Assembly: GCA_907163375.1 (NCBI GenBank)
Contig: CAJQUW010009010.1
Coordinates: 124,001-188,000 of the forward strand
Reading direction: 5' to 3'
Origin: Prostheceraeus crozeri
Taxonomy: Eukaryota > Platyhelminthes > Polycladida > Euryleptidae
DNA: 64,000 nt
Each line of letters starts with the position of its first letter. Position 1 is the first letter of the stretch. The notes under the pieces are model-generated. The model did no database searches, was not told the origin of the DNA, and worked only from the letters and a program-made list of their open reading frames with translations. Positions 8,316-63,682 of this stretch are shown piece after piece. A program made the translations under genes and the position numbers.

Positions 8316-8319
8316 TTAA

Positions 8320-9221: not shown

Positions 9222-9225
9222 TTAA

Positions 9226-10149
9226 TGTCGAAGGATCTCATGATCGATATGCTTTATGAAATCTATTGATGTTGATTTGATTGCATTCATTTGCATTGCA
9301 AGTTTATATAGACACAGTGGAACAGAGAATATCATGCATCGATTGATAGATAAAACGATCATTGGTACATCAGCTTAGCCCAAAGCTTTGATCTGTTTAG
9401 CTCAGAGGATGCGCACCTGCCTCATCAGTCATCATTACACAAGTATAGCTGACAAATACGTGCAGTGTCGGTTCCGTAAGCCATATTGCATCCATCCAAC
9501 CAATCGGTTGAGCAGTCCATTTCATTCCCCAATTGCTAATAGAATATATGCAGGACTTTCTAAGGACGTGCAGTCATTCGAAAAGACCAGTCATTTGGAA
9601 AAAAGAAGAATGATGCAGATGTTTCTCGACCTAGAAAACCCTGGAAGAGTGATATCACAGCGTGTTCTACTCATTTTATTAGTCAAGATATTGCAATTCT
9701 AGTTTCAAGTGGCGGCCATCTTAGATTTTTGCTTATCAGCCCCGCGGGCCTCCTCCAAGTTGTGTGCGGTGGTTTTTGAAAACGTTGGATCCATTTCTAA
9801 CACCAATCAAAGTTAAAAAGTTATCAGAATGTGCAAAATTCTTCTAATTTTTGACATATTCCCGCCCTGCTATATAAGCAGTTTGAATGATTTTGTCTAA
9901 ATAGGATAAAAGAATAATGAAAAACGCTGGGTCTTTATTGCCTTCATTGTTTCATTGTGTATTTGGAACGATATTACTGCAGTTAAGTTGGTAAAGACCA
10001 GCAGTGTACGCATTCTAGCCGGTAAAAATGCTCTTGAAATGACTGCTGCACCTTCATAACATTATAAATCTTGAAAGGACAAAACTCGTTCTTGACTGGT
10101 CAAACCTAGCAGTAGAAGTAAATTTATTGAGTCAATGAAAATCATTTAT
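9226..10149. other. No gene recognised
   Basis: A 104-codon open frame on the plus strand (9388-9702) has no recognisable motif and is not supported. The interval may include the 3' untranslated region of the LINE to its right. Confidence 0.4.
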
Positions 10150-10232: not shown

Positions 10233-12055
10233 TCAAATTGTGTGTAAATTTTCAACAATTGCACAACAGTACGGAACAAAAAGAATGCAGACGCCGAGTC
10301 GTACTACAAGATGGTAAAATATAACGCTGAGATCTAAAAGAGCGCTCTGGCATAATGGAGTATAAGATATGTACAGTAGGTGGTCTGTACTGGTTTTCAT
10401 AAACAACCGCTTTGCTGCGTCGACTCTACGCTCTTTCAACTGCGGAAACCCACGGCACTTACAGTTGCCCACGTGAAAATATTTTGGCAAAGAACACACA
10501 AGTTTGTGAACACGATTTTGAAATCGATCGATTTGGGTTTCCAGTGACACCGGCAATTTAAGAAAACACAGGAGGCATACTCGAAAACACTTCGTATCAA
10601 TGCACAATAAATAACAGTTAGCTCATGAGGGGAAAGTATAGGTCGAAGCAGTCGCATTCCATACAATCTCTGATTGGCGATCCTGAGGACATAATCAATG
10701 TGAGTATCCCACGAAAGCTTATTGTTCAAGAAAACGCCTAGCAATTTGAGTAAACCCACTTCTTGAACGTCAGGATGTTCTTCCGAGTGACAGTCCGTAA
10801 ACTTTTGAATAAACATTTTCCTCGATTTCGCGCAGTTTAAGGTCAGACCATGCGTTGCAGACCACTGGGATACGTGCTGGTGTTCAGACACAAAAGAGTT
10901 CAAAGACACATCGCGAAATACAGGAATGCAGTATGCAACATCATTGACATACTTCACTATTGATGTTGTGGATTGGACTGGTGACAAAGATGCTGCAACG
11001 ATGCAATAAAGGTACGGGCCAAATAACGAACCTTGAGGAACGCCTGATGGAACGTCTATGATAGTATCAACGCAGTCGCCAATCCTCACGGCTTGTGTGC
11101 GATTAGAGAGATAATTGTGCATCAGTCGGACAAAGCCAAGGGGCAAGTTGATTTCACTGAGTTTGTGAAGGATGACGTCGTCCGGAGCTTGTCGAACGCT
11201 TTCGTGTAATCATAGGATACGATTTGAACACCTCCAACATCATTCTTATCAAGCAAAAGAGTAGGATCATCGAGAAGTTTTAGAAGCGCTGCTGTGTGGA
11301 TGAACCGGGTGTACATCCAAATTGGTTGGAACTGAAGGCCTGGATTAATGTATGCTTGATAGATCCACGTAATACGAAATACTCAAACAGTTTCGCAGGC
11401 ACAGGTAACAAAGAAATTGGTCTGATGTTGTACAAATCGAAATGTCCGTGTTTGGGAATCGGTGAAACATGGCTATGCTTCCAAAGTGATGGCACAGACC
11501 TTTGTATGACGCACAAGTGGAATAGGTGTCACAGTGGACCTGCTATGATATGCGCGGTAGCTTTGTAAATAATTGTCGGCATGCGATCGCTCCCTGGGGC
11601 TTTCTTCTCTTTGATGTCACTCAACTGTTTCTGAACATCGATGCGGGAAATGTCTATTGACCAATCGACGTCATCAGGTTCAAGTGAATCAAGAGAATGT
11701 CCACTTAAGAAAACTTCTCCGAGGGCATGATTTATTAAATTGGTAGCGTTTTGAGGACCACCAAGTTGAGTACAAAGGCGATATATTGGATAAATGGACT
11801 TCGTTCCTCGGGTCTGATTCACAACTTGCCAAAGATTCTTAGGGTTGTCGTTGACGCGTTCAGACCAGTTCGTCTTTGCCTTCACAATTTCATTTTGCAC
11901 CTTAAGCTTCCAATAGTTGTAAGACTCGAAATCTCGTCGCCTGTAGGCATCCCATCTTCGTTGAATGAACATCTTGAGCAGAGGGGTAATCCAAGGTTTA
12001 TCCTTTGGAGCTAGCGAGACCGTGTGCTGTGGAATGTACGTGTTAACAAAATCAT
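10233..12055 (-). pseudogene. LINE ORF2 reverse transcriptase and C-terminal part, frameshifted
   Basis: Consecutive open pieces in different frames (about 11529-12014, 11280-11516, 11122-11316, 10436-11146, 10233-10607) carry one reverse transcriptase. Readable motifs: KKAPGSDRMP; SPIPKHG then YNIRPISLLP; QFGCTPGSSTQ; YDYTKAFDKL (motif A with its Asp); GVPQGSLFGP (motif B); KYVNDVAY (motif C); LTLNCAKSRKM; LLGVFLNNKLSWDTHI; FEYAS and DRFQNRVHKLVC in the C-terminal region. Motif C has Asn instead of the first catalytic Asp of the usual [YF]xDD (codon at 10943-10945). The frameshifts make it inactive. Confidence 0.85.
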
Positions 12056-12853
12056 TCAGGAGGTTGTGAAAAAATATACAGTTACTCTCACTTGAGTCAT
12101 CAGATTAAATAAACGGCTCCAGTTAATCTTGCTCATTTCCGAGACCAAAATACTCAGATTAGACCGTCGCACATCGAAGACCCGCTTCTTTACACAAGCT
12201 CGATCTAGATTAGAGCTATTATTAGGATACATCAAGACACAACGGTGATCGGAATTAGCAACTGTTGCTGTTACACAGATCTTGCAACGTGAACTTATCT
12301 CTTCACAAGCAAAAAATATATCAGGAATAGCCTCGCCACGGGTAGCTGAGGTCACAAGATTAACGATATTCAAATCATCCGCAAAAGAACAACCCATACG
12401 ATTAAAGTCATCGCCAATGACAACATGAAACTCGGGATGCTTCGATAGTCCAACATCGAAGTTCTCTACAATATAATGATTAATTTCATTGATGAATGAC
12501 ACAGTGCGGTTTGGAGTCACATAAATACACATTACAACAGTTTTCAACTGTGTAAAAATCAACCATACATCATCATTAACGTCTTTTGGTGAACTAGAAG
12601 TAAGAAATCGCTGAAACATGATATTGTTCTTTATAAAAATCACTCCTCCACCGCCACGGTGCGCAGATGATCTATCATTGCGAACAATAGTATATCCAGG
12701 AATATGCACGAGGGAATCCATTATCAAAGGGCTTAACCAAGTCTCGGTGAAGAGAAGCACATCTGGCGAAGTTGAACCTGCAACAGCGCGAACATCGTCG
12801 ATTTTTGGGAGAAGAGAACGCACATTAGCCAAAAGAAAGGAAGGCAAAAACAA
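12056..12853 (-). pseudogene. LINE ORF2 N-terminal part: endonuclease/exonuclease/phosphatase domain
   Basis: This domain nicks the target DNA to prime reverse transcription. Visible catalytic landmarks in order: ANVRSLLPKID (Asn), LLFTETWL (Glu), GYTIVRNDRSSAHRGGGG (substrate loop), VVIGDDFNRMG (Asp/Asn) and VANSDHRCVL (Asp/His). All are present, so the domain may have been functional. The frame ends at a frameshift near 12105; the missing continuation (HNLLNDFVN, then PWITPLL) is readable in the next frame. No convincing ATG was found at the start. Confidence 0.8.
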
Positions 12854-12892
12854 CTTATAAGTATTTTGACCATAACACTCGTTAAAAAAACT

Positions 12893-13627
12893 TTACCGAA
12901 AAGGAGCAGGAAAGTCATCACTTATCTTCACGTCGTCAACGAACAAATCACCCTTGTGGATATAGACCCTTTTCCCGTCGTTTTGTGGTTTTGCTTTTTC
13001 ATCATCTCTTCTTTGTCTTAATCGTTTCTCCTGCAGTTGTTGAATAGGTGTTAGATCTTTGTTTACATATACACGGGAAAAGTTCACGGATTGCTTCAAA
13101 GATTTTGAAGCTTTCAAAAAATCCCACTTCTTCTGCATACTGCGGAAAACGACTTTAATCGGACGGTTATATCCATTGCCTGGTTTGCCAATTCGTTGGA
13201 CACTCTGACAATCAACTTTGACACTCAGTGGGATATTGATAGCGTCAGCAATGCCATTTACAGCTGTTTCGGGATCTTGTGATTCTTCAACTCCTCTAAG
13301 GACCAGGTTGTTCTTGCGCATTTCGGCATCGTGCTTTTCAATTGCAGCGCCCTGGATTAAGACAGTTTTCTTCAATGCCTCTACCTCACTTTGCAATGAA
13401 AAGTTTTCAGCAACAAGAATATCTAACTTCTTGTTCATTTCAACAAGCATGTTATTAGACCACTGGTTACCGTCGTCAATCGAAACATCTGATTGAGTAG
13501 CATGTATGGAACTTCTGACCTTGATCAGAGCATCGATGAGTTGCGCCTTTGTCACATTACCATGTCGAAGCTGATTATCAGGCATATTCTCAATAGACAC
13601 GACATCCTTGCTGCCTTTCCTTGTCAT
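12893..13627 (-). CDS. LINE ORF1 protein (L1/CR1 ORF1-like, RNA-binding)
   Basis: An open frame of 244 codons. Proteins of this type coat the element RNA and act as nucleic-acid chaperones in the cytoplasmic RNP. Residues about 58-100 form a leucine-rich coiled coil; residues about 105-165 (RKNNLVLRGVEESQDPE onward, then QSVQRIGK and RPIKVVFRS) match the RRM-like core of L1/CR1 ORF1 proteins; residues 187-193 (VYVNKDLT) and the following basic stretch match the C-terminal domain. I chose the ATG at 13627 over upstream TTG codons. It lies about 40 bp upstream of the endonuclease frame, as in two-ORF LINEs. The frame is intact although ORF2 is not. Confidence 0.8.
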   Translation of the reverse strand: MTRKGSKDVVSIENMPDNQLRHGNVTKAQLIDALIKVRSSIHATQSDVSIDDGNQWSNNMLVEMNKKLDILVAENFSLQSEVEALKKTVLIQGAAIEKHDAEMRKNNLVLRGVEESQDPETAVNGIADAINIPLSVKVDCQSVQRIGKPGNGYNRPIKVVFRSMQKKWDFLKASKSLKQSVNFSRVYVNKDLTPIQQLQEKRLRQRRDDEKAKPQNDGKRVYIHKGDLFVDDVKISDDFPAPFR

Positions 13628-13640
13628 GATCAAATGCAAT

Positions 13641-15762
13641 GCAAAAAGAAAAAGTAAGAAATTGAACCAAGAACCTTGCAGTTGCGGGTCGAACGCCCTA
13701 TCACATGTGCCACAGCAGCTGATGACAAATGAACACGATCAGATTGATCTTGGTCCGAGAATTCTGATGACTTCTTGCATAACACCAACTGACCGCTTCA
13801 AGATCGATAGCCACGACAAACACCCAAGTTATGGAATTAGCAAGCAGAGAATTCACGTTGAATGAACACTGATCACAAGGGAGAAATCCCGAAATAGCGA
13901 AGCTGATCGACGAGAAGTCCGAACGGTGATGTCGGAAGTAAACGAAGAATCACGGAAGCTACTGATGCATATAAATTTCAGCGATGGTCGACAGATAGAT
14001 CACAAGATATTCCACACAGAATGACACTAATACGAGAGAGAAGATTCACACAACCGCAGCGTTAGACTGTTGGAACAGGGGAAGCTTTTATGAGATTGCT
14101 ATGTCATCGACAGGAAAATATTCGGTTACATCAACGTAATCCAAATTGTATGTGGCAAAACTTTTTCATAAGACGCACAAGTTGACGTGCTAAGTCTGCA
14201 TCTAAAAACATCATTCAACACTAGCAGTCAATTGCACCATCGTGGAATAGTTATTTCCAGAATAAATCTAATCTCAAGATAGTTTTTCCGTGGCTATTCC
14301 TTTGTGTATCCATCACCACTGATTGCAGGTTGGCTTATTCAAGTTGTTATGCCGCTTTGTGAAACCACCCAAAACCACGAGCCATTGACTGCGCGTCTTG
14401 ACTGCGTCATTTGTCAAACGTTGAACTGTTTAAACTATTTTTTTTCGTGACGTGAATAACAGGTCAATGTGAATTCTTTCGTTCGAAATGATGACAAGCG
14501 GAAATGAGTGGACGCACGACAGCGGCCCATTGAGGATTTTATCGACTTGGAAGCGGCAAATTTCAGGACTACGAGTGGAAGGGAGAGAGAGATGAGAAAG
14601 AATACCAAACGAAGAGAAAACGACGAGAATGAGAGAATGAAAAAAAAGAAAAAAGAAAACGCAATTTAAAGCTGGCAGTGGAAAAGATGAGAAAAAATTA
14701 ACTAAAAAGATGAAGAAGAGCACTTGAAGATCGAAGGACAGTGATGCGAATGCAAAAAAAAAAGAACTGGAGGCGGTTTGCCTTGAAAACTGGAGCACTT
14801 TTGGAACCTAGTTGTGCAAGGTTGTCGGTATCTTTCACTGAGGCAAGGAGCTCGTCTGTCCGGGAAGCCGAAGTGACTCGGTCGGTATGGTCGCAATTTG
14901 ACAGGTAGGCCCTCCGGCTATGGTTTTTCAGAAGGTGGAAAAAGTTTGATAATCTGAATTAATTCTTCAATTTCAGTTACAAGTTTCGAACCCTGCCTTT
15001 CCATTCTTTTTCGATATCATTGACCTCGTTATGAGGTGCCAATTGAAAAAACATTTCTTACAAACAAAGCCTCCGTCACCTTTAAACCGCACAAAACTTC
15101 AACCTTGCAAGCTCCATTAAAAATCAGCGAGTTAAGTTGAAAAATTCCCTATTCTTCGCACGGATTCCATCATTTATTATAAACCTATAAATTTTATCAG
15201 AGATTAACTCAGATCTGGAATAAAGCTTATAGATAATTGTTATTCTGCGTTTATTAAATGTTAATTGCTTATTCCTTATAAGATTCTGTTGCAAGAATAT
15301 TCAATCGACTTTCATTGTGTTTTCAGGAATCTCCTAGGGGTTTTGATGCTGGATTAGTCCATCCATGCACATTTACTGAGAAGATTAATGAAGTCATGAA
15401 ACACAACAAAGAATCATGGAACGATGTCTGAATCAATTCAATGAAAGACTAATTCGAAAGTCAAAGAACTCTTATTTTCTGTTGAATGAAAATCTTCAAG
15501 GAAAGATTGTGGGCGTTCTTTTGGATTATTCTTCTTAATGACTTAAATAGTATCATGAAACAATGTTTTAGTTACTTTTGAGTCGTCACTGCAGAAATCT
15601 GATGAGTGAAATATTGATAAATGTAATGACAAATAAATAGCATGTCCCTACGTGCCATATTCCCTTGCAACGTCAAACACGACAAATGGCGCACAACTGT
15701 AAACAAAATTGCTTACTCCGTACCAATTGAAGCACCTATGGAATTAAAATGTCTGCTTGTCT
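13641..15762. other. No gene recognised; contains a polypurine tract
   Basis: No coding exon, RNA gene or bounded repeat seen. About 14575-14662 is nearly pure A/G on the plus strand (GAGAGAGA and AAAAAAGAAAAAAG runs), which keeps the opposite strand open for about 120 codons without any protein-like composition. Confidence 0.5.
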
Positions 15763-33436: not shown

Positions 33437-33922
33437 TACCTCATCCGATGTCGGGAGTGCAGTTCATTCTATATCGGAGAATCCAAGCGAACTATGCCTT
33501 CCGGACCAAAAGAAGACATTCATCGGGTGCATTATTGGTCCACCGACACTTAAGCGAATATCATTGATATCCATGTCCATCGTTGAACAGTCTTCAATGG
33601 CAATGGCACATACAGGTCTCACGAATACTCAATTAGATTGGAGCGCCAAAGCAGAGTTGTGTGAGATTAGAACTCGTAATCCGGACTTAAATGTTCATTT
33701 AGTTGTAGTCTCTGTTTTACCGTTTGCATGACTAAGCCTAGTGGGCAAATCCATTTTAAATGACTGTTTTCACGATGGAAAAAAATGATAAAATAAAATT
33801 CGTCCAATCAATTTAAGTTACATTTTTTCTGGACCACTTCAGCATGCTAGAAACGAATATCGTATTGAAAACCACACCAAACTTAAATATTTTTCGGTAG
33901 CAAAAAAATTTAGAAAATGCTC

Positions 33923-34041
33923 GTAGATCATAACGAAAATTGCGTAGATCATAACGATCACTATGTAGATCATAACGAAAATTTCGTAGATCATAACGAA
34001 CGCCGCATAGATCATGACGAAAATTAACGTAGATCATAACG
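33923..34041 (+). repeat. Left array of GTAGATCATAACG, 21-bp period
   Basis: Six copies of GTAGATCATAACG or one-base variants start at about 33923, 33944, 33965, 33986, 34007 and 34029, i.e. nearly exactly every 21 bp, all in the same orientation. A further partial copy (AGATCATGAT) lies at about 34071. The right array at 38933-38987 carries the same motif inverted. The array lies about 600 bp beyond the 3' end of the 34646-37481 gene. Confidence 0.9.
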
Positions 34042-34645
34042 GAATATATGTCGACCACAAGAAAGAACACAGATCATGATATTATCATGTTGCTACACAT
34101 ACTGCGGTAGGCCTATACATTTATGATCGATATTGAAGCTGCCACATGAAGCATCACTTTAGTTTTTGTGTTTCTTTTCGGATGTGAATGACCATTTACA
34201 TGGACATGCACGTAGGTTGTATTCTGGATTACTCATGTTTGTGCATTGTTTTAATGTAGATATTGACAATACTTTGTTAACTGTATCGATATTAGTAAGT
34301 CAGTAATTCACCAGAGTCATGTACGTGTACGTGTAGCCAATTCATATCATGCGTATTTTGCAATTCAGACAAACTACGAGTGGACCTATGGGCAAGGATA
34401 TCTTTGTTATAAACTCGTTTGGCTACTTCCCTTCATGATTTCCAATGGTCGAAAATCCCATAATTGATAGATAAGTCTACTGTAAGTCGATTGTGCGTGA
34501 TACCAACAGCTGATTCGAATGCAAAAACCAAACTCCAGGTTTATACAGCACAAATATATGCAATCTATATACTACTTTCTAAAAGGTACCGGTGCACTAT
34601 GAAAGTCAAGTCAACCACACTGATGTTGATGGTTAAGATGCTATT

Positions 34646-37481
34646 TTAAAGTTCTTCATAGATCTTCATTATGTTGTCATATTCTTCCTCAGGTAGAACG
34701 TAGTGGGTGATCCGAGACGTCGATGAACTGGCGACAATGGAGGGTGCACCTGTTAGTTTCCAGATGATTGTGTCCAAGTGGACATTGTCCTCCTCAGGGG
34801 GATCTTTCCACAGAAACCTGCAATCCAAAATGCAATTTTGAATCCCTACATGTAGGCTAATTAGTAATTATGATCACACGAATTTCTTGTTCGAACCTTT
34901 TCTCAAATCTTCAAGGTTTTGAGACAGCCTACATGACTGTATAATAATGCTTCATAACCGCTTAATAATGCAAATAATCATATTTGTGACATTTCGTCAT
35001 GGAGCATAAGCTGAGCTAATGCATATGCGTGCATGCTTATTTCCAATCTCAAATGCATGCTTTTCATTCGTTAAACCAGCAACACTTACTGTATACCTGA
35101 GTCATAATGTATTACTGGGATGCAAATATGATGGCTTTATATGTCTTCATGCAATTCCTATTAATACAAATGTTGAAATTGGGATACTTTTTGCCCTTGA
35201 CTTACCTATTTCGGCTCTTTTCTTTCATGAACACCACGTTTGCATAGCTCTCACTGGTTTCCTTCACCTGCGCCAGATACCATCGTTCGCAGAGGACAAC
35301 GACATAGCTGTTCACCTCAATATTTCTATCCATCTTCTCTTCGCCACGATCGACATCAGCATCATCGGAGCCTATCCATTCCATTGTGGAGAAGCAAATT
35401 GGGTCACCACGCTGGCATGCCAGGTCCCTGATCAACATTCGTGAGACATTTGTATCTTCACATATGACTTGATGTGCACTAGCGATTCCTTTCATTGCCT
35501 TTGTATTCATATGCTCCCTTGTTTCTTTCTTGCGATCAATTTCTTCTTTGCTGACGATTTTGCTTGTAATGACTGTCTCTGAGCTGTACAATAATTGTTG
35601 AATATCTAGTGCGCTGTCAATTTTTCCTCCATTCGAAATGAAGTTATCACAGCGACGTTTCACTGCTGCGCCGACCCCATCAGGGGTTCCCTTACCATGA
35701 CTGCTTTCCGTGAATAACCATTGAAAGGTTCGTATTCCTTTTGTGTGGCAAACGTGCCTGATTAGGTTCAAAGTAAACCTGTTTCTGTATTGAGATGAAG
35801 GTGAATCACTCACAAAGATGATGTTTTCATATTCTCCGACAACGATTTCCTCCAGAATGCTTTCAACGTGAGCTGCTACAGCTTCTGCAGTTTTCCGTGT
35901 GTCGTCTGATAACGTAACAAACGATCTTGGTTCCACGTCCTTTTCGTAAGCAACACCTTGGTGGATGACCACCTGGCTCCTTGACCCGAAATGGGCAGCT
36001 TGCACCTCTTCCCCGAATGCCGTTGAATAGTTTTCGGAAAAATCGAAATGAATCAATAGATCCATCTCGCTCAGGTTTTCTCTGGCTTTTTGAATAGCTG
36101 CATATTGATGTTTGATTCTGAAAGCGTGTCCGGCAAATTCGTTGAGACTTTCTTGAAACATGTTGACAACTTCGACCGCCGACTGATAATGCTCATATGG
36201 CTTTGTTGAAACATGACCGAGGTCATCAGACTTTCTTTCCCATCTGTGAAAGCGAATAATAGCTGACTTCACTTTGCTGGCATCATAAGCTATTTTGTTG
36301 ATGCACTGTTCGCATTTTCTGATGGCACATTGATAATCATTTTCTGTACATATGATGCTTTGGAGAAGAACACTTCTCTCTCTACTTGATACAACGCGGT
36401 TGGCGTAGAGTGCGTCGATTAGGAGTTGTAGGTTTTCGCAACGCATGCAAAGACATAGATCGCGATTGTGCATGTCGGGCTTCTTCAGGTAGAAAACTTT
36501 GTTTGCGTAGGTGTAGAATGTTGATCTTCCGATAATGTTGCCATGTTCGCTGCAAAACGTCGAATACAAAATGTCCAGAGAGAAGTTCAAATACCTTTTC
36601 TGTTCGGTGCGGTCCCCTTTCTTCGCAATTTCCTTTTTGCTGGATGTCATTCTGTAGTTGTCATCTCTACATAAGAACTCTTCAATTTTCTGTGGATCCA
36701 ACTTTGTTGAGCGCGGTGTTTTGTCATCGGCCATTCTGACTGCGCGATCAGACATATGAACTGCTTGTTGCAAGAGTGTCTTTCCTCCTCTTACTTCTTC
36801 GCAAGCCTTCTTGAGGACATTCTTATCTTTTGAAGTTTTCAAAGCTTTCATCATGCCATACTGCAATTTCAATGCGGTTGACATTGTTGGGTAGCCAGAT
36901 TTCACGATCTTCTTCACATATCTATCCGGAGATGACACCGCAGTGGAATCTTTGATTTTCTCAAGCTTTCTCTGTAGTATAGTAACTCTCCTTCTCAATT
37001 TGATGTTGTCAAATTTCAAAAGATGGACTCGCTCCTCCAGGTATTTGTTTCTTCTCCGCAAAATTTTTAAGGTATATTTTCTTTTTTTCTGTTCTCTTGC
37101 CGCTGCTGCTGTACTCTTGGAGCTGGCTGTGGAAATTTCAAGTACGCCAATCTCATGATTTGGATTAACTCTCTCCTCAATATGCGCGTTTTCCGATTGT
37201 TGCTCAGCATCAACCATTCTCCTATCTCCATCTGTCGTGTGGTGAACGATGTCTTCTGGACATTCATGTCCCGATGGACTAGGGTCACTCTTCTTTAAGC
37301 GATATGCATTTCTTCTGTTTCTGTTCATAGCACGCTTTTCTCTTGCTGACATATTCTGCTTCTTTTTTTCATAATATCTTTTTGCTGCAATCTTTCGTCG
37401 TTCGGCATATGTTTCACTGTGCAGATTTTTCATTTTTGAAATATACTTATCGGAGCGTTCTTTCTGAGTTTTCTTGGGCAT
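34646..37481 (-). CDS. Two-exon gene for a putative DDE/RNase-H-fold protein (unassigned transposase family)
   Basis: Exon 1 is 37481-35206 and exon 2 is 34817-34646; the 388-bp intron has donor ATAG|GTAAGT and acceptor ATTGCAG|GTTTC. Splicing gives about 815 residues with no stop. The ATG at 37481 is the first in frame. Domains: Lys/Arg-rich N-terminus (1-65); coiled coil (about 137-175); Cys cluster (C343, C345, C348, C378, C385, C390, C393), probably zinc-binding; then HFDFSENY (D480), IIFVSDSPSSQYRNR (D559) and FTESSHGKGTPDGVGAAVKRR (E592), which have the order and context of an RNase-H-fold DDE triad; then a C-terminal beta-barrel-like part (NSYVVVLCERWYLAQV, VVFMKEKS, FLWKDPPEED) continuing across the splice. 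I recall similar proteins as uncharacterised in other invertebrates. The DDE reading is inference. Flanking 21-bp arrays suggest it is the transposase of its own element. Confidence 0.8.
34818..35205 (-). other. Intron of the putative DDE gene
   Basis: Donor GTAAGTC at 35205 and acceptor GGATTGCAG ending at 34818; it interrupts an Arg codon. Plus-strand open frames over this region (35019-35444) are shadows of the gene. Confidence 0.8.
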
Positions 37482-37532
37482 GTTCAAAAAATCAAAATGA
37501 AATCAAAATGATTCAGGGCTTCGGTGGGAAGT

Positions 37533-37539
37533 TATATAT
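37533..37539 (-). promoter_or_regulatory. Candidate TATA box of the 34646-37481 gene
   Basis: TATATAA on the minus strand, about 52 bp upstream of the ATG, leaving room for a short 5' leader of roughly 20-25 nt. Confidence 0.4.
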
Positions 37540-38932
37540 CGCAGAATAGAAAAGTGATGATGGTATAATTAAGGCAGATATGCGCACAATAGTGCTTGCG
37601 ATTGTAAAACAAGTAAGTATGATTTTTTGGATACTTTTGGATACAGCAATTTACTGGTGCATGATGCCATTATCATAATTTTTGTTAGAAAAGATATTGG
37701 CACTGCACCTCAGGATGATGTTAATATTTGATGCGATTTGCAATTTTCATGAAAAGATCAAAATTGTTATTGAACTGAAGGTAAGCCTATATGTAGGTTA
37801 TCTTATCTGTTTGGCGATAAAGGATAATGAACTTTTAACGGGTAATTGCATGAGTTGTAGCGAGTATCAATTATTAAAAATAATTCAAAAATCAAAAAGG
37901 TTAGGGCTAGGGTAAAGTTAAAGCCCTATGGCATCAATGAAAATGTAGGGGGGGAACTGCACAAGAGCCAGATAAATTTTGTATTTTCATTATCGGTTAC
38001 TTATTTAAACTTTTGCTGCATACTGCATATGATATACTTATATATCTACACATTTCAGTACGTGATATTCATCTATATTTCGTGACATTTACATGTACGT
38101 ACTAAAGATTATTCTTATTGCTACTAGTTTTTGTGTATGAAAACCAAAAGCTGCGTACATGTAGCTTCCACTTACCTCATATGATGAAAGCGAAGGCAGC
38201 AGCGCAATGTAGTATCGATTCGTACGCAATTTCGACGATACGAGACAAGACAATGAACACACAGGTGATGGAATGTTGAGACGTCGCAATACCTTGGTCC
38301 CAGCGTGAGTGGCTTCTATATGGAATGGGATGTCACGCGCGCGAACGCAATGGCAGCTAGCTTTTCTGCGAATGGTGAGAAAGGCTCTTGGGAGGATGAA
38401 TAGGTTATGTAATTTTACGTGTACATAGGTTGTCCGAGGCTGGCTGGCATTATTGCTGAGATGCGCGTGCGACCATGGACACTAGAAGGGGCTGAGACAG
38501 CGGGAATCGCGCTCGCCTTTCCAACCATGCGGACCCACGTGGACCCCTTGTGACAGACGCACGTGTGTTCATACAATCTTACAAAGTGACAGTGGACCGA
38601 GGCGGGAGGCCATGTCGTGGTTCGCGTGGCTAAGATTATTGAGGAACCATCCTCCTCTAAAAGATATTGCATAATGAAACTTGGGGAACCTACAACTCGT
38701 GTGTAACTAGCAGAGAATATTCTATTGTGCTGCCACCAGGGCCCAAGTGATTGACTAATTGGATTTGGAGTCTGTTCACACCTCTCATACATTCTTTAGA
38801 CTCGAGATGAAGAAATCAATGTGATAGTAGAGATAACGTGTTCATTGTTCGCTCATTGCATGATGTGCTGAAGTTGCGTCGCTTATTCTCTCCGCGTGGA
38901 GTAAAGGGATATTAAACTTTCAGCTAATATTT
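37540..38932. other. Non-coding right part of the proposed 33.9-39.0 kb element
   Basis: No recognisable gene. About 38330-38720 is clearly more GC-rich than its surroundings and has a 125-codon minus-strand frame (38415-38792) without any motif I recognise; it is listed so that it is not lost. Confidence 0.35.
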
Positions 38933-39015
38933 CGTTATGATCTACATTTTCTTCGTTATGATCTACACAATTTTGGTTATGATCTACGTAGATCATAACG
39001 AAGTAGATCATAACG
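38933..39015 (-). repeat. Right array of GTAGATCATAACG, 21-bp period, plus head-to-head copies
   Basis: Three inverted copies (CGTTATGATCTAC or GGTTATGATCTAC) start at 38933, 38954 and 38975, a 21-bp period. They are followed immediately by two forward copies at 38988 and 39003. The junction forms a perfect 24-bp palindrome at 38976-38999. Another single forward variant (GTAGATCATAGCG) is at about 39188. Confidence 0.85.
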
Positions 39016-40721
39016 AAATTGTGGTCGTATCTTAGAAAAGATAATACTTAAGAAATTGCTGTGATTTAGGCTGTTGAAATTGTTGTGATTAACTGTTGAA
39101 AAAGTATTGGATTTTTTCATATTTTTCGATAGAGCTATCAAACTTTATGCATTTGAAGTACTTTTTTGTCAATTTGAAATATAAGGCCGTAGATCATAGC
39201 GAAATTTGTGGTTGGACAATAGTTTTTTCGAATTTTAAAGTTGATTTATTGGGCTTAAACAATTTCAGGATGCCTTAACAAATAGGATATTCTTAATCAG
39301 TGAAAAATTCTGCATCTATAGGTGGTGTAGGGTAAAGTTCAAACTTGTCCTTATTGTCTTGAGATTTGATAATGTGTACTGGACCCTTGAAAAAATGTAC
39401 TTGTGAACATAGTAGGGAAAATTGACAAAATGCGCGCCTGAGGTCAGCAAATGATTTATATATCATCAAGTTATACATGTATGGATAGCTGATTTAATTC
39501 TACATCCTCCAGTGCAAATTTCAGTTTATGAATACGGTTTTCCTGGTGTATGGATAATGAACAAGAAGAACATAGATACAAAAAAAACAACCGCATTTTT
39601 GAGGTATGAGAAATTCGAATCGCAATTATATAAAACAATAAATCATAGGATGATTCTGAAAGTTTTCTTGTGGTGGTGGATGGTCAGGCTCTCGCTGAAA
39701 AAAAATCGCTAATGATTTGGATAATTACAGCGGCGACAGGAACGGTTTTAGTGAGAAATATTTCTCATCCTGAAAACAGTCATTTAAAATGGATTTGCCC
39801 TAGTACGAAACGTTGCGTGTACTGTTTTAATACAATTACTCTCGGTCGTAGAACTTCTGAATATTTCTTTACAATAACATCTAAGAACTGCTTTGGCAAT
39901 TAAAGACAAATGCATTTGAATCAACAAAATATGCGCAGGACTCGAAGCGAAGTCGGGGAAGTGGAAACGTTGGCAGGACTCAAAGTGCAGTCGGAGAAAA
40001 TGCAAGACGTTGGTAGAGCTCAAAGCAGTCGGAGAGAATGTCAAGCACTGACAGTCGGCATTATGTCTTTGACCTTCATCGAGCAGGCTAATACGAGCAG
40101 TGATACAATGGAGGAGGCGCTGTGAATTTAATTGTGAAGTGATGTTGTGGAAGAGCTGTGACGAATATCGGTCGATGCATTGCTATTGTACTACCTACCA
40201 ACATTCACGACATAGACGTCATGGATCCTGATTGAATAGTGATAATCTTAATTTTCTGTTTTGTTTAGTTTGGTCAGTAGGCATCGGTGAATGAATTGAC
40301 AAAAAAATTCATACTTTTATGTCTGCTGACCACAACTGACCGGACCCAACCTAATCGCTCTGCAAATCAAAGTACTAAACACAACCTTTCACATGGTATA
40401 GAGTTTATTGAAATTGAGCACCATCATCAATGAAAAGATCATGTCAGACAATTTTAGCAGCATTTTTTTGGTAAAACTTATTTGTACTGTATCTTTTTGT
40501 ACATTCAACGAATCTTAAAATCGTTACATCATGATGAAGCTGAGTGATAGCTCACACTGTCTGTCAGTTTTCATTAAAAAATTCTGTCGACTTCATGCTA
40601 AAATCCTGCATCAAAGAAAACGCTCAATTTTCTTTCAGAAGGCCTACTAACAACAACTGACCAGTTAAGAAAGTAAAATGTATGCCAAAATAATCTATGG
40701 AACATATGGTTTCACATTAAA
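39016..40721. other. No gene recognised; small imperfect tandem repeat
   Basis: Nothing supportable as a gene. About 39936-40045 holds roughly two and a half imperfect units of about 45 bp built on GGACTC.AAG.GAAGTCGG and GACGTTGG, spanned by a plus-strand open frame that is probably only the repeat. Confidence 0.4.
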
Positions 40722-41059
40722 AACAATGAGATTAAATACACGATAGATCAGATTGCCATGCAAAAGATGTGCGGCTGGTAGAATTCGAACCTACGACCAA
40801 GGTTAACTAGACCTGTGCTCTAACCAACTGAGCTACGAGCCACTTACGCGACTCTGTCAATTGGCAGGATCAAACCCTCACTACCACACATCAGTTGTCA
40901 AGGCAATAATAATCAATGAATAAATAACACGTCACAATTGTGACCGCCGACATTAAGGCAAGTAGCGGCGATCCATTGTCCACCAAAGCATCTTAAGCCA
41001 TGTCGTGAAGGCAATTAACAACAATGAGACCAAATACACGATAGATCAGATTGCCATGC
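40722..41059 (-). mobile_element. SINE-like insertion bounded by 40-bp direct repeats
   Basis: 40722-40761 and 41020-41059 are direct repeats of 40 bp with about three differences (both contain ACGATAGATCAGATTGCCAT). Between them lie 258 bp holding the tRNA-like sequence and, near 40861-40885, a second B-box-like string on the minus strand (GGTTTGATCCTG). This looks like a short retroposon with an unusually long target duplication; a local tandem duplication is the alternative. Confidence 0.5.
40770..40843 (-). tRNA. tRNA-Thr(AGT)-like gene or tRNA-derived SINE head
   Basis: The minus strand has an A-box-like TAGCTCAGTTGGTTAGAGC, an anticodon loop CTAGTTA (anticodon AGT, Thr) and a perfect B-box GGTTCGAAT in a five-pair T-stem. 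The 5' part has one fewer nucleotide than a standard acceptor plus linker, and the acceptor stem has a wobble and a mismatch. That, and its position inside an insertion flanked by 40-bp direct repeats, fits a tRNA-derived SINE or pseudogene at least as well as a functional gene. Confidence 0.6.
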
Positions 41060-47137: not shown

Positions 47138-47196
47138 CTCTCTCCTTTTCATCACCTAAAGACTGATTCAACGGTCTTCTCAATTCTTCAGCCACA

Positions 47197-48453
47197 ATGA
47201 CCACTACTCCAACTGCGCTGCTATTGACGGTCTTTGCTCAAACCGTCAGTCCAGATCCGACTCCTCAAGCCAAATTTTTGTCCAACGCTACCGCTAGTGA
47301 ATGCGCCAAATCGGCGAGCTTAATCAAGAAAAATATTTCTGCAGCAATTTTTCCGATTCAACTTTTCATCGGTTTCTTGTCTCTGTTGAGCAACTTCTGT
47401 AATATTGTCGTGCTGTCTCGAAGAAAAATGATTAATGCTACTAATACTATACTCACAGGTATGGCTGTGTGTGATCTCATTACTTGTGTTTTTTATGTAA
47501 TTCGATGTTTAATGACTCACCTCATTGAGGTTATCTATAATCTGACTCTCAAACGCATTAGCACTATTTTCCTCATGATTTCACTCACTTCACATACCTG
47601 TTCCATTTGGTTGACTGTTCTTCTGTCAATATTTAGATTTTTTATCATTCATACTTCATATGCATCTCCTCGGTCGAGTGAACTTTGGGGACTTCGCCGT
47701 TCCTTGACTGCTACTGTGCTCATCTGCCTCGCGGTAACCTTATTCCTCTTGCCAGTGTACGCAACTATAAGCTATCAAGCGATTGACGACGTACTTAATA
47801 ACATAACTTTACCGAACGGAAAGTTTTATCAGACATTCAACCAAACAGTCTATTTCGCAAAGTTTAACCCCGAAGCTTTCGGAGTTTACAACTTTGCCAG
47901 TAATGCTGTTCTTGCCAAAGTAATCCCTTGTGTGTTGCTAACTTTCTTTGGAGTTCTTCTTTTAGTTACCCTTCACAGAGCAAACAAAAGACGCATGTCG
48001 CTCATGGAGGAATCAAGAACTACCCTGTCAAACCAAGGCGGAGGAAAGGGAATGTCTCGAAGAGAACGAAATAGCCGTCGGATAACTCGAATGCTTTTGA
48101 CTGTAATAATCATTTTTGTGGTGGTTGAACTACCAAATGGATGTCTCATGTGTTTCTCTAGACTGAACCATAAAGTCCGTTGTATCTACACGGCATTCGG
48201 CGAAATTTGCGATTTAGCATCGTTGACTAAGAATGCAGTTACTTTTGTTTTGTACTGTAGCATGTCTACAGAATTCAGACAAACGTTCCGCTCTACTTTT
48301 TGTCATTGTATAAAGCAGGGGAATACTGCCAGTGGTAACGGAAACCACATGACCACAGAAATCGGTGAACGAAAAACAGTTACAACTGCGGCATTTGTTG
48401 TTGATCATCTTACTGCCAAAGGAAAGGCCGGTGGTTATTCTCAAGCTCTTTAG
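47197..48453 (+). CDS. Rhodopsin-family GPCR, peptide-receptor-like (DMSR/sex-peptide-receptor-like), intronless
   Basis: Probable plasma-membrane neuropeptide receptor of 418 residues in one exon, ATG in good context (CCACAATGACC). Extracellular N-terminus with glycosylation sites N30 and N46; further sites N115, N202 and N215. Helices: TM1 about 49-74, TM2 83-104 (MAVCDL, the conserved Asp is D93), TM3 121-149, TM4 170-190, TM5 235-259, TM6 298-320 (ELPNG, conserved Pro313), TM7 337-354. The TM3 end is FRF rather than DRY, and TM7 has NAVTF rather than NPxxY. HTCSIWLTVLLSIFRF and the FVLYCSMSTEFRQTF end recall the myosuppressin/DMSR/sex-peptide receptor group. No Cys is present at the usual TM3 start or in the second extracellular loop, so the canonical disulfide is missing. 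A basic third intracellular loop (SRRERNSRRITRM) is a likely G-protein contact. The ligand cannot be inferred. Confidence 0.85.
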   Translation: MTTTPTALLLTVFAQTVSPDPTPQAKFLSNATASECAKSASLIKKNISAAIFPIQLFIGFLSLLSNFCNIVVLSRRKMINATNTILTGMAVCDLITCVFYVIRCLMTHLIEVIYNLTLKRISTIFLMISLTSHTCSIWLTVLLSIFRFFIIHTSYASPRSSELWGLRRSLTATVLICLAVTLFLLPVYATISYQAIDDVLNNITLPNGKFYQTFNQTVYFAKFNPEAFGVYNFASNAVLAKVIPCVLLTFFGVLLLVTLHRANKRRMSLMEESRTTLSNQGGGKGMSRRERNSRRITRMLLTVIIIFVVVELPNGCLMCFSRLNHKVRCIYTAFGEICDLASLTKNAVTFVLYCSMSTEFRQTFRSTFCHCIKQGNTASGNGNHMTTEIGERKTVTTAAFVVDHLTAKGKAGGYSQAL

Positions 48454-50343: not shown

Positions 50344-51584
50344 CAGTCCGTTTCATAAAAAGTGGATCATCCTAAAATTTGACTAAATACTCGTAAAACA
50401 TAAGTATGATACAGTAACGGTTCTTAAGAAGCTAATATTTTGTGGCCCTACCCTTATTGTCAATGACATTACCAATTCATCTAGGCATTGATTCGATGAT
50501 ATCGTTGATTTTTGACTGATCTAACTTCTCCCCTCTCTTTTTTAACAGTGACGTAAGTTGTGATACGCCATCTGTAGGTACCAGTTAACGACGAACGTTA
50601 CGTTTTAGAATACTCCATACATTTTCTATGGGATTCAGATCAGGAGAACGAGCTGGCCAAGATAATGTCCTAAGCCCTAATTGAGACTTGCATAAGTTGA
50701 CTCTACTACTCCTGTGACACGTATTATCATCCATAAATAACCAAGTCGATGGATCACCAAGTTGATCTGTCATTTGGCCAATGTTCATTCGTAAAACATT
50801 CACACAGCGTTCAGAATTCATGGTTCCTTGCTGTATGTGAAGTTCAGAGAGGCCATTGGTCCAAATGCCAGCCCAAATCAGTAGAGTCGCACCACCTTGT
50901 ACCCGGGGACGATGTAAATGTCTAGTGTAAAAGTCTAGTGCAGCCATCTCAGTTAACGAGAGACTTGGATCAACTTTAACAAATCTCAAAATTAGGCGGT
51001 CTCTACTTTTGGATGTTTTGCGTGGACGGCCAGAGAATGCCGTCCACGCATTTTTCAAAAGGCTTTATGAATTGCCTTTTGTGAATGCGATCTCGTTATT
51101 GTTCATTTGTGCTTTGTATTGTTTTCAACTGGTAAGAGATAGATTTCTAGCTGAAAGCAATCAGGAGTGCTGCCAACACCACCGCAAAGAAGTCAGGAAG
51201 CTATGGAACATGAAGTCCAGTTAATCACATGTAGCAGTTACATTATTGTTGATGAATAATGGTGCTATACTGGCTCTGATTGACCGATTTTCTTTATTTT
51301 TGTTTTGCTTGATAGCTTTTGGCTTGTAGAACAACATATTGCATAACAAAGGAAACAAATGTAATTTCATAAGAGTGAGGTATGATTTTGTGTAACATTG
51401 CTAAATGAAGATCAAATTATCTACTACTTTTTTTATAACAAACAAAATATTCATATTTCCAACAATTTCCAACAATGATATTAGTAAGCGACAGACATAT
51501 TCGTTCAAATTTCAGAGGAGTTAGAAGACAAAGTTGAAGTTAAGGCGATGTTTAAGGGTGATCCATTTTTTATGAAACAATCAG
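50344..51584 (-). mobile_element. Deleted Tc1-like transposon
   Basis: Inverted termini share GTTTCATAAAAARTGGATCA (left at about 50350, right at about 51561-51579 inverted). The right end is followed by TA. It carries an internally deleted transposase. Ends are approximate because the left target dinucleotide is unclear. Confidence 0.65.
50440..51125 (-). pseudogene. Tc1-like transposase with internal deletion
   Basis: The main frame (50585-51058) starts with the end of the paired-type domain (FSGRPRKTSKSRDRLILRFV, then DPSLSLTEMAA) and jumps directly to LDFYTRHLHRPRVQGGATLL, losing roughly 80-100 residues including the strand with the first catalytic Asp. It then has STWLFMDDN (second Asp) and PARSPDLNPIENVWSILKRN (final acidic residue). 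After a TAA the protein continues as VPTDGVSQLTSLLKKRGEK, IIESMPR, stop, IGNVIDNKGRATKY. Upstream, MNNNEIAFTKGNS is followed by a TAA. Catalytically dead. Confidence 0.75.
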
Positions 51585-59206: not shown

Positions 59207-62200
59207 CTAGTCAACTTCAGATAAACAGTTTATTTCTATGGTTCTATCATCGCATAAACTGCACAATCTTTCGTCATAGCTCAATCGATTTCTATGACTG
59301 TCATGATTCCTACATCGCAATTTCAACAAAGGTGCTATAATATTTAGTTTTAGATTCAGAGTCAAATAACTTTTCATGCTGCAATCGAATTGACTTAACT
59401 CCAAGTAGTCTATTCCGGTTCTACTTTTCTTGGAATCATTTATCCAAATGGCTCTAAAATGGTCCATTAGTCTGGTTTTTACTATAATTTTGCATTTGCG
59501 CTTATTTATCTCTAAGCTGTTTTGATCTAACCAAAGATGTGATAAATTAATTTGCTTTAAAAGATGCTTTATTCTCCAGCACAATGTATATGAATAATTG
59601 CTATTGTCTAAATTATTTGAAACATGATTATAGCATCTTTTCATGATGCTACTACTTTCATTAAAGATAATTTTAATCCATAAGTTGATTGCAGCTTTTT
59701 CAAAATGATATTCGAGAGGAAATAGTCCAAACTCCTCTATCAAACAATTATTTGCAGTGGTAGTTATCAGATGATAGAAGCGTCTATAGAATTGAAATTG
59801 TATCCTATTGAATTCGGATAATTTATTGTAGAAGCAAAATTCACCACCATATTGCATTTTTGATAATGTCAACATTTCAAAGGTATTTTTCACTATTGTT
59901 CCATTCGCACATCCTATTTCTTTTAGTTTTTTAGCAGTTAGATATGCCGATTTATTACCATTCTTAGTTAATGAAGACAAATGTTTTTTAGTGTTATTTC
60001 CTATCCAAAATCCAAGATATTTATATTAGCGCACTATATCAATTCGTTTCAATTCATTGTTCAAATTAAGTTCTATGTGATCATTTTCATATCTAATATT
60101 TTGAAAAATTAATTTAGTTTTATCGAAATTCATATCCAGGCTGTTGCGTTTACAATATTCACTGACTATCTGTATTTGGTTCATTAGACTGCTTATATCG
60201 TTACTCATCAGAAGTATATCATCAGCATAAATTAGACAAGGTATTTGAGTTTCACCGATATTCACTGCATTCAAATTTCCAAGATTAGCATCAATCTCCT
60301 TTGACAAGTCATTTATAAAAATTAAAAATAACGTTGGTGACAAACTGTCGCCTTGGGGTATTCCATTTTTCAAAGTAAATTTGCAGGATTCATTGCCATC
60401 ATATAAAACTTTGAAACTTTTCTCATTGATCAGTCGATTCAAAAGGTGCTGAAAATTGCCATGAGGAAGTATACTGCCAATCTTGTGAATAAGAATGTTT
60501 TTCGGAACCGTATCAAAAGCCTTTGATAAGTCAATGAAACACATACACAATGGAAATTTTTTGTTTTTGTGAAGTTGCATTATTTCCTTAACTATATATA
60601 TATATTATCCATTGTAGAGCTTCCCTTCATCAATCCTGTTTGGCATTGCATTGATGGATGATACAATTCTTTTTCAACCACTTAGCCAGTCTATTATTCA
60701 TTATTTTGGTTAGCAATTTTTCTATATTCAAACTTAAATTTATTGGCCTATAACTTTTTACCATAGTTTTGTCGCCTCTCTTATGAATAGGTATTACCCA
60801 ACTTTCAGAAAATGGGATTACCTCATTATGATTGTGCAAGAGTTCGTCAAACAAATTCAGTAGTATAGGCAATGTTTTGTCATTTATTTTAAATATTTCT
60901 GTCACAAATTCATCGGGACCACTTGATTTTAAGTTCTTTGTATCTTTAAGATTACTTTGGAACTCATTCATAGTAATTTGAACGTCAAGGATTTCATCCG
61001 ATTGTTCTACCATATTGAAAGTTTCATTATTTACTGCGGTAATACAAGTCTCAACATGTCTAGATAAATAAAAATTTATCATTTTGATTTTGAAGTCATT
61101 CATATTCAGAGTAGATGTAATAGTGGTCCTTTTCTTTCCATTGATTAAGCTCCAATATTCTTTGTGATTTTTATTTTCTTTTGCGATTATCAATTTATTC
61201 AGATGATTAGATTTAATTTTTCTTGTTTCTTTCCTTATTCGCTTTTGCAGTTGCTTTCTCAATAACATCAATCTATTCAAATTACTATTTGATTTATCTT
61301 CTTTGAACATGGCAACCTCCTTTCTATAAACTTTCCGTAAGTTTGTAATATTTTCAGAATATTTTGATGTCTGAGGTTTATAATTGCAATCAGTTGAGTT
61401 ATTCCTTATGTCTAATAATTCAGTATATATTTCATTTGCGTTCATATTCTGAGTAATCAATTTGTTTGATAATGCAGTACATTTTAAGTCAAATTTATCT
61501 ATATCAAATTTTGAGGCTTTTTCTTTTGTCCATTTAAACGGAATTATTTTTTTACTTTGATATTTCCTATTTTTTGTAGTGATTTTTTTATCTGATGCAA
61601 TATTCAATTTTATCTTGAGAAGCGAATGGTCAGTGTACAACACTGGATTACCAATTTCGAACTCATTTAGCCTATTCAAAAAGGGACTCGGATACGATCA
61701 AATAATCTATCATTGATTTTTTAACTTCATCATTTTGAATACAGTGATACGTAGATTTTCCAATGGAGTCTTTATTTTCAAATCTTCCGTTTGCTATTAT
61801 TAATTTGGTTTCATTACAGAACCTTAATATTTCTTGTCCATAGCTATTTAGGGTTAAATCATCAGATTTTCTGTTTGGAAGACCAAGATTTTTATTATCA
61901 TTTTCTAATCCAATTCGTCCATTTAGATCTCCTATTATTTTTACATTTTCCATGTTGTATTGAAGTATGTAGCTTTTTATATTTTCATAGAATTCTTTGT
62001 CATTATATCTAGATTCTCTGTTACTTCTGTAACATATGATTATGAAAATATTTGATGTATGTTCCCTTATTTTAACGATCAATATTCTTCCGTTTTCATT
62101 GACAATATTTTCTAGATTTAAATTCTTTATATTTTCTTTTACATGCAGTGATATACCTCTGATATTTCTTCCAAATTTTGAAGATTTTCTTCCAATTGAA

Positions 62201-62500
62201 TGATAGCCTGTGTAATTTCTAATAACTGGCAGATTGTCTTCACCTTTTAAGTGCGTTTCAACAAAACAAAGCATATCAGCATTATCCATATCTTTGATCA
62301 TATTGGAATTACTTATTTTATTTTCATTTAAGCCGTTCACATTTATGTAACTTATTTTGAGGTCACTGATTTTATCAAAATCATGTTCATTGTCCTCTCC
62401 TTCCTTTAGTGTGCTAAAAATAAGATTGTATTGCTTGTGAGTGATGTCTGTTGTTTTGTTGATTGAGGATGCGCGTTGGTGTGTATTGAATTGGACCGTT
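59207..62500 (-). pseudogene. LINE ORF2: endonuclease and reverse transcriptase, lightly broken
   Basis: Nicks target DNA and copies the element RNA. The open frame runs from 62766 but the protein proper probably starts near 62400-62500, overlapping ORF1. Endonuclease landmarks: DLKISYINVNGL, LCFVETHL, IIGDLNGRIG, SMIDYLIVSE, then YTDHSLLKI after a one-base shift in a T5 run near 61680. RT: SSGPDEFVTEIF, WVIPIHKRGDK, SYRPINLSLNIEK; then a 5-bp tandem duplication (AATGC) near 60640 and a TA-repeat shift at 60594-60607; then CFIDLSKAFDTV (motif A), NGIPQGDSLSPTLF (B), LIYADDILLMS (C, intact). One TAA at about 60026-60028 precedes KYLGFWIG. The C-terminus (CRNHDSHRNRLSYDERLCSL) resembles a zinc-binding end. 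All catalytic residues are present. Confidence 0.85.
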
Positions 62501-63604
62501 TCCGTTGTCCGTTCTGGATACTCGATATCTATCTTCTTCTCTTTCTCTTCGTTCTCTTTCAAAATTGCGTCTTCTGTCTTCTCTATATCTTTGGTTCTCG
62601 TATCTGTTTTGATTTTCGTATCTAGTTTGGTCATATCTTCTACGCTGCTGTTCGTATCTTGGTCTTGTGTTCGCATTGATGTAGTTGTTGTGCCTGTTTC
62701 TGCTATAACCGTCGTTATAGTGTCGATTCCAGCGTGCATGATAACAGTTTCGCATCGGGTGACCACGTCTTCCGCAGTAGAAACAGGTAATGTTCCTTCT
62801 TATTGGTTGTTGTGGTGGTTGCCAGCGATGTTGGTTATCTTCTTGTTGACGATGTTCTACTTGAAGTTCTTGTTGACGCTGCTTTTCTAGTTGGCGCTGT
62901 TCTTCTAGTTGGCGTTGTTGTTGTTGTTGCTTTTCATTCATCTGCTTTTGCTGTCGTTCTATCTGATCCACTTTTTCTGATATTCTGCACAATTTTTCCT
63001 TTATTTTATCGTTTTCATCCTCGGGTTCTGTTTCTTCATCATCGTCACTGTCATCAGATTTGTTGTTGAAGTTGGTTATCCTTCGTTCTTCGTTCAGTTC
63101 TCTTTCTAGTCTTCTAATATTTTCATATGTCAGTGTCAGCTCACATTCACTTCGTGTTAAGTTTTGCTCAAGAGCTTGTATTTTCGTTGAACTTTCTTCG
63201 ATTTCGGTCCTGAGTGCTCCAGCTATTTTGATGAGATCTTCGCTTTTTCTTTGGTATTTGTTTCTCTCTTCTATGATTTCTGTGTTCTGTGTGGTTGACT
63301 CTGAATGTATTCTGTTCTTTGTGTGCTTTGTTATATGTTGTAATTCTGAAGGATATAAACTTTCGATACAATTTTTGCACTGGAATTTCCTTTTATTATT
63401 ATGTTTCAAATACTTTAGTAACTCATAGTCAGGTAGTTCAACACAAAAAATATGGAAAGAGTCTTTACATTTGTCACACTTTACATGTAAGTTCACCTCT
63501 AGATCTTCAAGGTTTTCATGACATGCCTTGCACCTTTCCGTTGTCATCGGGCTCTTTGGTTGCCCAGTGATTGGTTCAATTGATGTTGTCTTCTTTTCAG
63601 TCAT
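62414..63604 (-). CDS. LINE ORF1: PHD finger, coiled coil, CCHC zinc knuckle
   Basis: 396 intact codons. Presumed RNA-binding partner of ORF2 in the retrotransposition RNP. Residues 25-79 give a complete C4HC3 PHD pattern (C25, C28, C43, C46, H51, C54, C76, C79; RCKACHE, VKCDKCKDSFHIFC, FQCKNC). Residues about 110-255 form a long Glu/Gln/Arg-rich coiled coil with an acidic patch (DDSDDDEETEPEDE). C274-C287 is a CCHC knuckle (CFYCGRRGHPMRNC), followed by an Arg/Tyr/Asn-rich tail (RYENQNRYENQRYREDRR) of low complexity. The ATG lies 2 nt after the repeated 76-bp leader. The plus-strand open frames over this gene are shadows. Confidence 0.85.
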   Translation of the reverse strand: MTEKKTTSIEPITGQPKSPMTTERCKACHENLEDLEVNLHVKCDKCKDSFHIFCVELPDYELLKYLKHNNKRKFQCKNCIESLYPSELQHITKHTKNRIHSESTTQNTEIIEERNKYQRKSEDLIKIAGALRTEIEESSTKIQALEQNLTRSECELTLTYENIRRLERELNEERRITNFNNKSDDSDDDEETEPEDENDKIKEKLCRISEKVDQIERQQKQMNEKQQQQQRQLEEQRQLEKQRQQELQVEHRQQEDNQHRWQPPQQPIRRNITCFYCGRRGHPMRNCYHARWNRHYNDGYSRNRHNNYINANTRPRYEQQRRRYDQTRYENQNRYENQRYREDRRRNFERERREREEDRYRVSRTDNGNGPIQYTPTRILNQQNNRHHSQAIQSYF

Positions 63605-63606
63605 CT

Positions 63607-63682
63607 CTGTAATAGAATCGATTAATGAGAAACGTGAAGTTGTTAGATACGTTCCGGAACTCGGTTTTTCGTCTCACTAATT
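63607..63682 (-). promoter_or_regulatory. LINE 5' leader (repeat unit, upstream copy)
   Basis: 76-bp unit starting AATTAGTGAGACGAAAAACC on the minus strand and ending CGATTCTATTACAG, directly followed by AG and the ORF1 ATG. It differs from the 58632-58707 copy at only two positions. It probably contains the internal promoter, as LINE leaders usually do. Confidence 0.7.

Follow-up and report, generated by a model that had tools for sequence, protein, structure and literature searches.

A young, seemingly autonomous DNA transposon family of low copy number and its spliced DDE/D transposase gene in Prostheceraeus crozeri

A 64,000-nucleotide stretch of the Prostheceraeus crozeri genome (contig C7484:124001-188000 of a 2.05-Gb assembly; hereafter the window) carries a large spliced gene between arrays of a short unit repeated at a 21-bp period, which raises the question of whether gene and arrays are parts of a mobile element and, if so, where this element ends and to which group of transposons it belongs. 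The original prediction, made from the sequence of the window, proposed a candidate undescribed, autonomous DNA transposon with a DDE-like gene that is bounded by the arrays (33923-39015). The transposon part of this prediction holds: positions 33743-39800 almost certainly represent a copy of a DNA transposon family that is young and low in copy number, looks autonomous, and encodes one spliced 815-residue transposase of the DDE/D type with a predicted RNase H fold. The kind of element is already known, and the family is a good fresh example of it rather than a new kind.

Ends, copies, and empty sites

The boundaries were placed outside the arrays because the homology of close copies with the window copy begins and ends at the same two points, 33743 and 39800. 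The resulting element has a length of 6058 bp and carries 40-bp terminal inverted repeats (TIRs; GGGCAAATCC...GGATTTGCCC) that are 93% complementary to each other and give the termini GGGC...GCCC. A left end was readable in nine copies, in one of which GTGC replaces GGGC. A total of 12 loci were taken from the genome, and eight of these were readable at both ends and are included in the duplication count, whereas three loci with a single end each (L016, L018, and L019) and one diverged copy (L020) stand outside it. All eight copies share the same ends and each of them is flanked by a perfect 4-bp duplication (TAGT, TATG, TATA, TATG, TAGC, TAAA, TGTA, and TATA), for which the probability by chance is approximately 2e-19 in a simple model that assumes 40% G+C.

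Protein and DNA searches of the genome scored the best candidates only and all counts from them are therefore lower bounds. Exon 1 of the gene has at least 64 matches, consisting of near-identical, broken, and many divergent copies. The eight full copies are 97.3-99.8% identical; the spliced 815-codon gene is open in three of them (the window copy, L010, and L011) and frameshifted in the other five. The left 180 bp of the element have at least 26 matches, at least 13 of which are complete or almost complete (10 at 98-100% identity and three at 88% on contig C4496), and the right 180 bp have at least 29 matches, at least 12 of which are complete or almost complete at 88-100% identity. The other matches to the two ends are weak or confined to the TIR, and no swarm of small non-autonomous copies was found among these best candidates. 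The three matches on contig C4496 are a left-end fragment that recurs at positions 295794, 309026, and 322299 with a spacing of 13.2-13.3 kb, suggesting a tandemly repeated segment; the one fragment that was read (L025) is truncated and about 0.76 kb long.

Empty sites were identified for both insertions examined, L010 and the window copy. When the two flanks of L010 are joined by a single TATG, the resulting sequence has at least 33 matches in the genome: 27 span all 200 bases at 96-100% identity, four are partial or weak, and two represent the filled site, which appears as pieces 1-100 and 97-200 that overlap by exactly four bases. The sequence across the junction is unaltered in all four of these 27 empty sites that were read. 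The joined flanks of the window copy have at least 42 matches (140 candidates, 40 scored), two of which are the filled site while the other 40 cross the junction at 81-87% identity, and the window element thus sits in a repeat of about 160 bp that is dispersed over at least 40 other places. The empty sites of both insertions are paralogous and not allelic. Overall, the copy search proposed with the original prediction fixes the ends and the 4-bp duplication on eight copies, and three features of a DDE/D cut-and-paste element are present, namely TIRs, a duplication of fixed length, and, for two insertions, precise empty sites.

The coordinates of the element and its parts are listed in table 1.

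Table 1. Parts of the transposon copy in the window (positions from the first nucleotide of the window)
Feature	Position	Strand	Remarks
Left target-site duplication, TAGT	33739-33742		Repeated at 39801-39804
Left TIR, 40 bp	33743-33782	+	93% complementary to 39761-39800
Left subterminal array, six units of GTAGATCATAACG, 21-22 bp spacing	33923-34041	+	One unit with two mismatches
Exon 2, end of C-terminal barrel with stop	34646-34817	-
Intron, GTAAGT...TTGCAG	34818-35205	-	Splice-site letters identical in 8/8 copies
Exon 1, 758 full codons	35206-37481	-	Basic N-terminus, long helix 125-180, CxC motif, RNase H core
Right subterminal array, three inverted units	38933-38987	-	One unit with one mismatch
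Two forward units, 15 bp apart	38988-39015	+	Abutting the inverted units
Lone forward unit	39189-39201	+	One mismatch
Right TIR, 40 bp	39761-39800	-	Partner of left TIR
Right target-site duplication, TAGT	39801-39804		Copy of 33739-33742

The arrays are subterminal: they begin 180 bp inside the left end and lie about 0.8 kb inside the right end, and since the homology between copies and the TIRs reach beyond them to 33743 and 39800, the arrays are ruled out as the ends of the element. The unit GTAGATCATAACG occurs 12 times in the window when up to two mismatches are allowed, compared with 1.3 expected occurrences, and none of 100 shuffled sequences reached 12. The six forward units on the left and the three inverted units on the right were recovered as predicted by the mismatch search, and Tandem Repeats Finder (TRF) assigns a period of 21 to both sides, but the description of nine units had missed the forward pair and the lone forward unit on the right. 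The number of units differs between copies, as the left array contains 4-9 units in the other seven full copies and the right inverted array contains two units in two of these seven. A genome-wide scan for the exact two-unit pattern revealed 48 occurrences on 13 contigs (0 for the reversed control pattern), all of which are located by coordinates inside copies of the window family, with contig C4496 holding only a gene-less fragment. Arrays dispersed through the genome independently of the gene, one of the findings that had been named as speaking against a transposon, were thus not found with this pattern, and the arrays are specific to the family. At a guess, they may be extra sites for the transposase or regulatory (transcription-factor) sites.

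A second family of this genome, related to the first, is informative in this respect. Four divergent loci were fetched, three of which (L021-L023) form one family that matches exon 1 of the window copy at 35% (approximately 32% for L022 in BLASTP). The ends of this family (GGGTAAATCC...) are close to those of the window family (GGGCAAATCC...) and 4-bp duplications were identified by eye from the flanks of L022 (AGTT) and L023 (ATGT), while the fetched locus of L021 stops short of its right end. The array unit, with up to two mismatches, was found in none of the four divergent loci, indicating that the wider group shares similar ends and the 4-bp duplication but does not need the arrays. Locus L021 additionally contains an insert (7321-9577) with 169-bp inverted ends that are 99% alike and that each hold a 21-bp tandem array; the insert is a further element whose inverted ends carry arrays, with a unit (TTTCCAATCTTTGCATTGAAA) that differs in sequence from that of the window arrays.

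The transposase and its probable catalytic residues

The gene is encoded on the minus strand in two exons and its 815-residue product starts with an ATG codon (MPKK...), as had been predicted for an intact two-exon gene of about 815 codons. The splice is supported by the relatives, in which the C-terminal barrel that exon 2 extends is read as a single frame, and by the splice-site letters that are shared by all eight copies. Structure prediction, proposed earlier as a check, returns an RNase H/DDE integrase core with acidic residues at the ends of strands b1 and b4 and at the start of helix a4. The same fold, strand order, and placement of acidic residues are found in the solved cores of retroviral integrases and the Mos1 mariner transposase, although the window protein is only 8-11% identical to these structures in the rows cited and differs from both in its length of 815 residues, its long N-terminal helix, and its C-terminal barrel.

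The original prediction named D480, D559, and E592 as the catalytic triad. All three residues are located where it had placed them and the first two are retained, but D601 is a more likely third acid than E592, and D480-D559-D601 is the most likely triad. Among the alignment rows that reach the site, D601 is conserved in 46 of 46 relatives while E592 is found in 44 of 46, being replaced by alanine in P0017 and P0019. Furthermore, D601 is located in the first turn of helix a4 in the predicted model while E592 directly follows strand b5; invariance and position together favor D601. A rough comparison with avian sarcoma virus (ASV) integrase (1cz9) and Mos1 (4mda), based on gapless extension of the alignment ranges and not on single residues, places D480 onto ASV D64 and Mos1 D156 and brings D601 closer than E592 to the third acid of both proteins, which we take to be ASV E157 and Mos1 D284. 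Three conserved acids in an RNase H-fold transposase are present in both the predicted structure and the alignment.

In the most likely mechanism, a dimer or multimer of the protein would bind the 40-bp inverted ends, with the basic and helical N-terminus as the likely DNA-binding and multimerising part. The transposase would then cut the element out, in a cut-and-paste rather than a copying reaction, and would catalyze its joining to a target that is cut at positions 4 bp apart on the two strands, leaving gaps whose repair by the host would produce the 4-bp duplication.

Relatives and classification

The transposase belongs to a widespread animal family. Named relatives come from insects, molluscs, and amphioxus, and their database entries read "uncharacterized", "hypothetical", or "unnamed". 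Proteins of Helicoverpa armigera (LOC126055567), Macrosteles quadrilineatus (LOC129004253), Haliotis rubra (LOC124258241), Mytilus coruscus, and Branchiostoma lanceolatum are 30-46% identical to residues 470-620 of the window protein and share the motif HGKGxxDGxG with it. The residues C390 and C393 of the window protein are gapped in 28 of 47 aligned rows, including the mollusc and amphioxus proteins. A phylogenetic tree of 48 proteins groups the window family with L024, L022, and P0003 (100/100). This clade shares one side of the tree with a 16-member clade (92/90) to which the two named insect proteins belong; the remaining 28 proteins, with the named mollusc and amphioxus proteins among them, make up the other side (the midpoint root serves for drawing only). 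Scans of places sharing one of two short motifs returned 42 pattern matches but no confirmed relative in prokaryote genomes, and among 13 pattern matches in the IMG/VR viral contigs no relative was confirmed. One transposase of this family (P0026) is labelled as derived from a Sedimenticola metagenome-assembled genome and is perhaps host contamination of that bin.

The superfamily of these transposases can be assigned with graded probability only. Membership in the known Sola superfamily (Sola1, 2, or 3) has about even odds, in which case the mechanism would be the same and the family alone would be new. The groups Sola1, Sola2, and Sola3 reportedly go back to Bao and colleagues in 2009. By printed description, on which the likeness rests rather than on protein sequence, the window family agrees with Sola in its 4-bp duplication (8/8 copies), its length of 6 kb, and its 40-bp TIR. 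A DDD triad would agree as well, provided that D601 (46/46) rather than E592 (44/46) is the third residue, as the predicted model suggests. Passages on Sola in one paper give a DDD transposase, 4-bp duplications, lengths of mostly 2-9 kb, and TIRs of 11-1124 bp (PMC10741241), another describes an 888-residue transposase, compared with 815 residues here, and AT-rich 4-bp duplications for Sola2 elements of social amoebae (PMC3627910), and a third gives a mean length of 5445 bp for curated Sola1 elements of bivalves (PMC10294476). The first paper reports Sola from bacteria too (PMC10741241), yet the two-motif prokaryote scan confirmed no bacterial relative of the window family, which argues against the assignment.

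That the family represents a DDE/D transposon superfamily of animals without a name so far is possible but doubtful. At an E-value of 0.01, no Pfam family matches more than one of 47 members and none of the five families listed is a transposase model; the result for NCBIfam is the same, with no transposase model among the families listed, and the best match of the profile to PDB sequences has an E-value of 0.56. No paper on this family was recognised in the literature, where motif strings of the type GHGKGAPDG match only papers that are unrelated by title, and the uninformative database names of the relatives point in the same direction; the family may be undescribed, as the original prediction had it. 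However, missing matches say little, as Repbase, Dfam, and most subscription papers lie outside the search, and the silence of Pfam in particular carries little weight because Sola, to our knowledge, has no Pfam model. According to PMC4455052, convergence in PSI-BLAST at an E-value below 0.005 is the criterion for a Repbase superfamily. Tentatively, the family might found an animal-wide superfamily characterized by DD40-43D spacing, a nearly invariant HGKGxxDGxGxxxKR motif, 4-bp duplications, and the termini GGGYAAATCC that two families of this genome display. Such a superfamily would comprise at least two deep lineages (insect; mollusc and amphioxus) together with the clade of the host, and the inverted 21-bp subterminal arrays, with their unit number varying between copies, would be specific to single families.

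A divergent relative of hAT, MuDR, P, Kolobok, or Dada, with E592-x-x-H595 in place of the C/DxxH signature, is improbable. H595 is present in 46 of 46 rows and is preceded three residues upstream by E in 44 of 46, but the signature requires C or D at this position, where the family has ExxH (44/46) or AxxH (2/46), and none of these superfamilies is among the five Pfam families listed. Duplications are about 8 bp long in hAT and P, 8-10 bp in MuDR, and TTAA in Kolobok, unlike the 4 bp observed here. Several further groups were considered and rejected. Tc1/mariner elements duplicate a 2-bp TA while all eight copies have 4-bp duplications, one of which lacks a leading TA (TGTA, copy L015); DDE_1 and DDE_3 are not among the Pfam families listed for the 47 members although DDE_3 is detectable in two other open reading frames of the same window. 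For piggyBac and Kolobok, the TTAA target is absent from the eight paired duplications; the one readable end of L016, a right end, does have TTAA next to it. The termini GGGC...GCCC do not fit Ginger, the termini of which are 5'-TG...CA-3' according to a passage in PMC10741241. A domesticated single-copy host gene with arrays adjacent by chance is hardly conceivable: the open reading frame in the window is intact, as such a gene would be, but the conserved single-copy gene that the original prediction had named as its alternative was not found, and the gene is present in multiple copies with TIRs, duplications, and empty sites.

Neighboring features and significance

Other parts of the window contain further repeats and a probable host gene. 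Two Tc1/mariner-type transposase remnants (Pfam DDE_3) are located at 4572-5153 and 50585-51064, and two regions resembling non-long-terminal-repeat retrotransposons with reverse transcriptase matches at 10436-13738 and 59207-63673, all four on the minus strand. The reverse transcriptase match of the former region is below the Pfam cut-off and is accompanied by an endonuclease match, while the latter region is preceded by an open reading frame with a weak PHD-finger match. An uninterrupted open frame for a G protein-coupled receptor (47167-48453, plus strand; Pfam Srw and 7tm_1) is probably a host gene. A transfer RNA (tRNA) match of 37 bits (40772-40841, minus strand) lies about 1 kb to the right of the element and represents a tRNA gene or a tRNA-derived repeat.

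For a group whose named entries are all uncharacterised, the family provides defined ends with their target duplication, empty sites, and three genes that are intact and nearly identical. It is thus a candidate for testing transposition directly and supplies a label for unannotated animal genes. The subterminal arrays, variable between copies, constitute a natural test of any effect that repeated inner sites may have on transposition.

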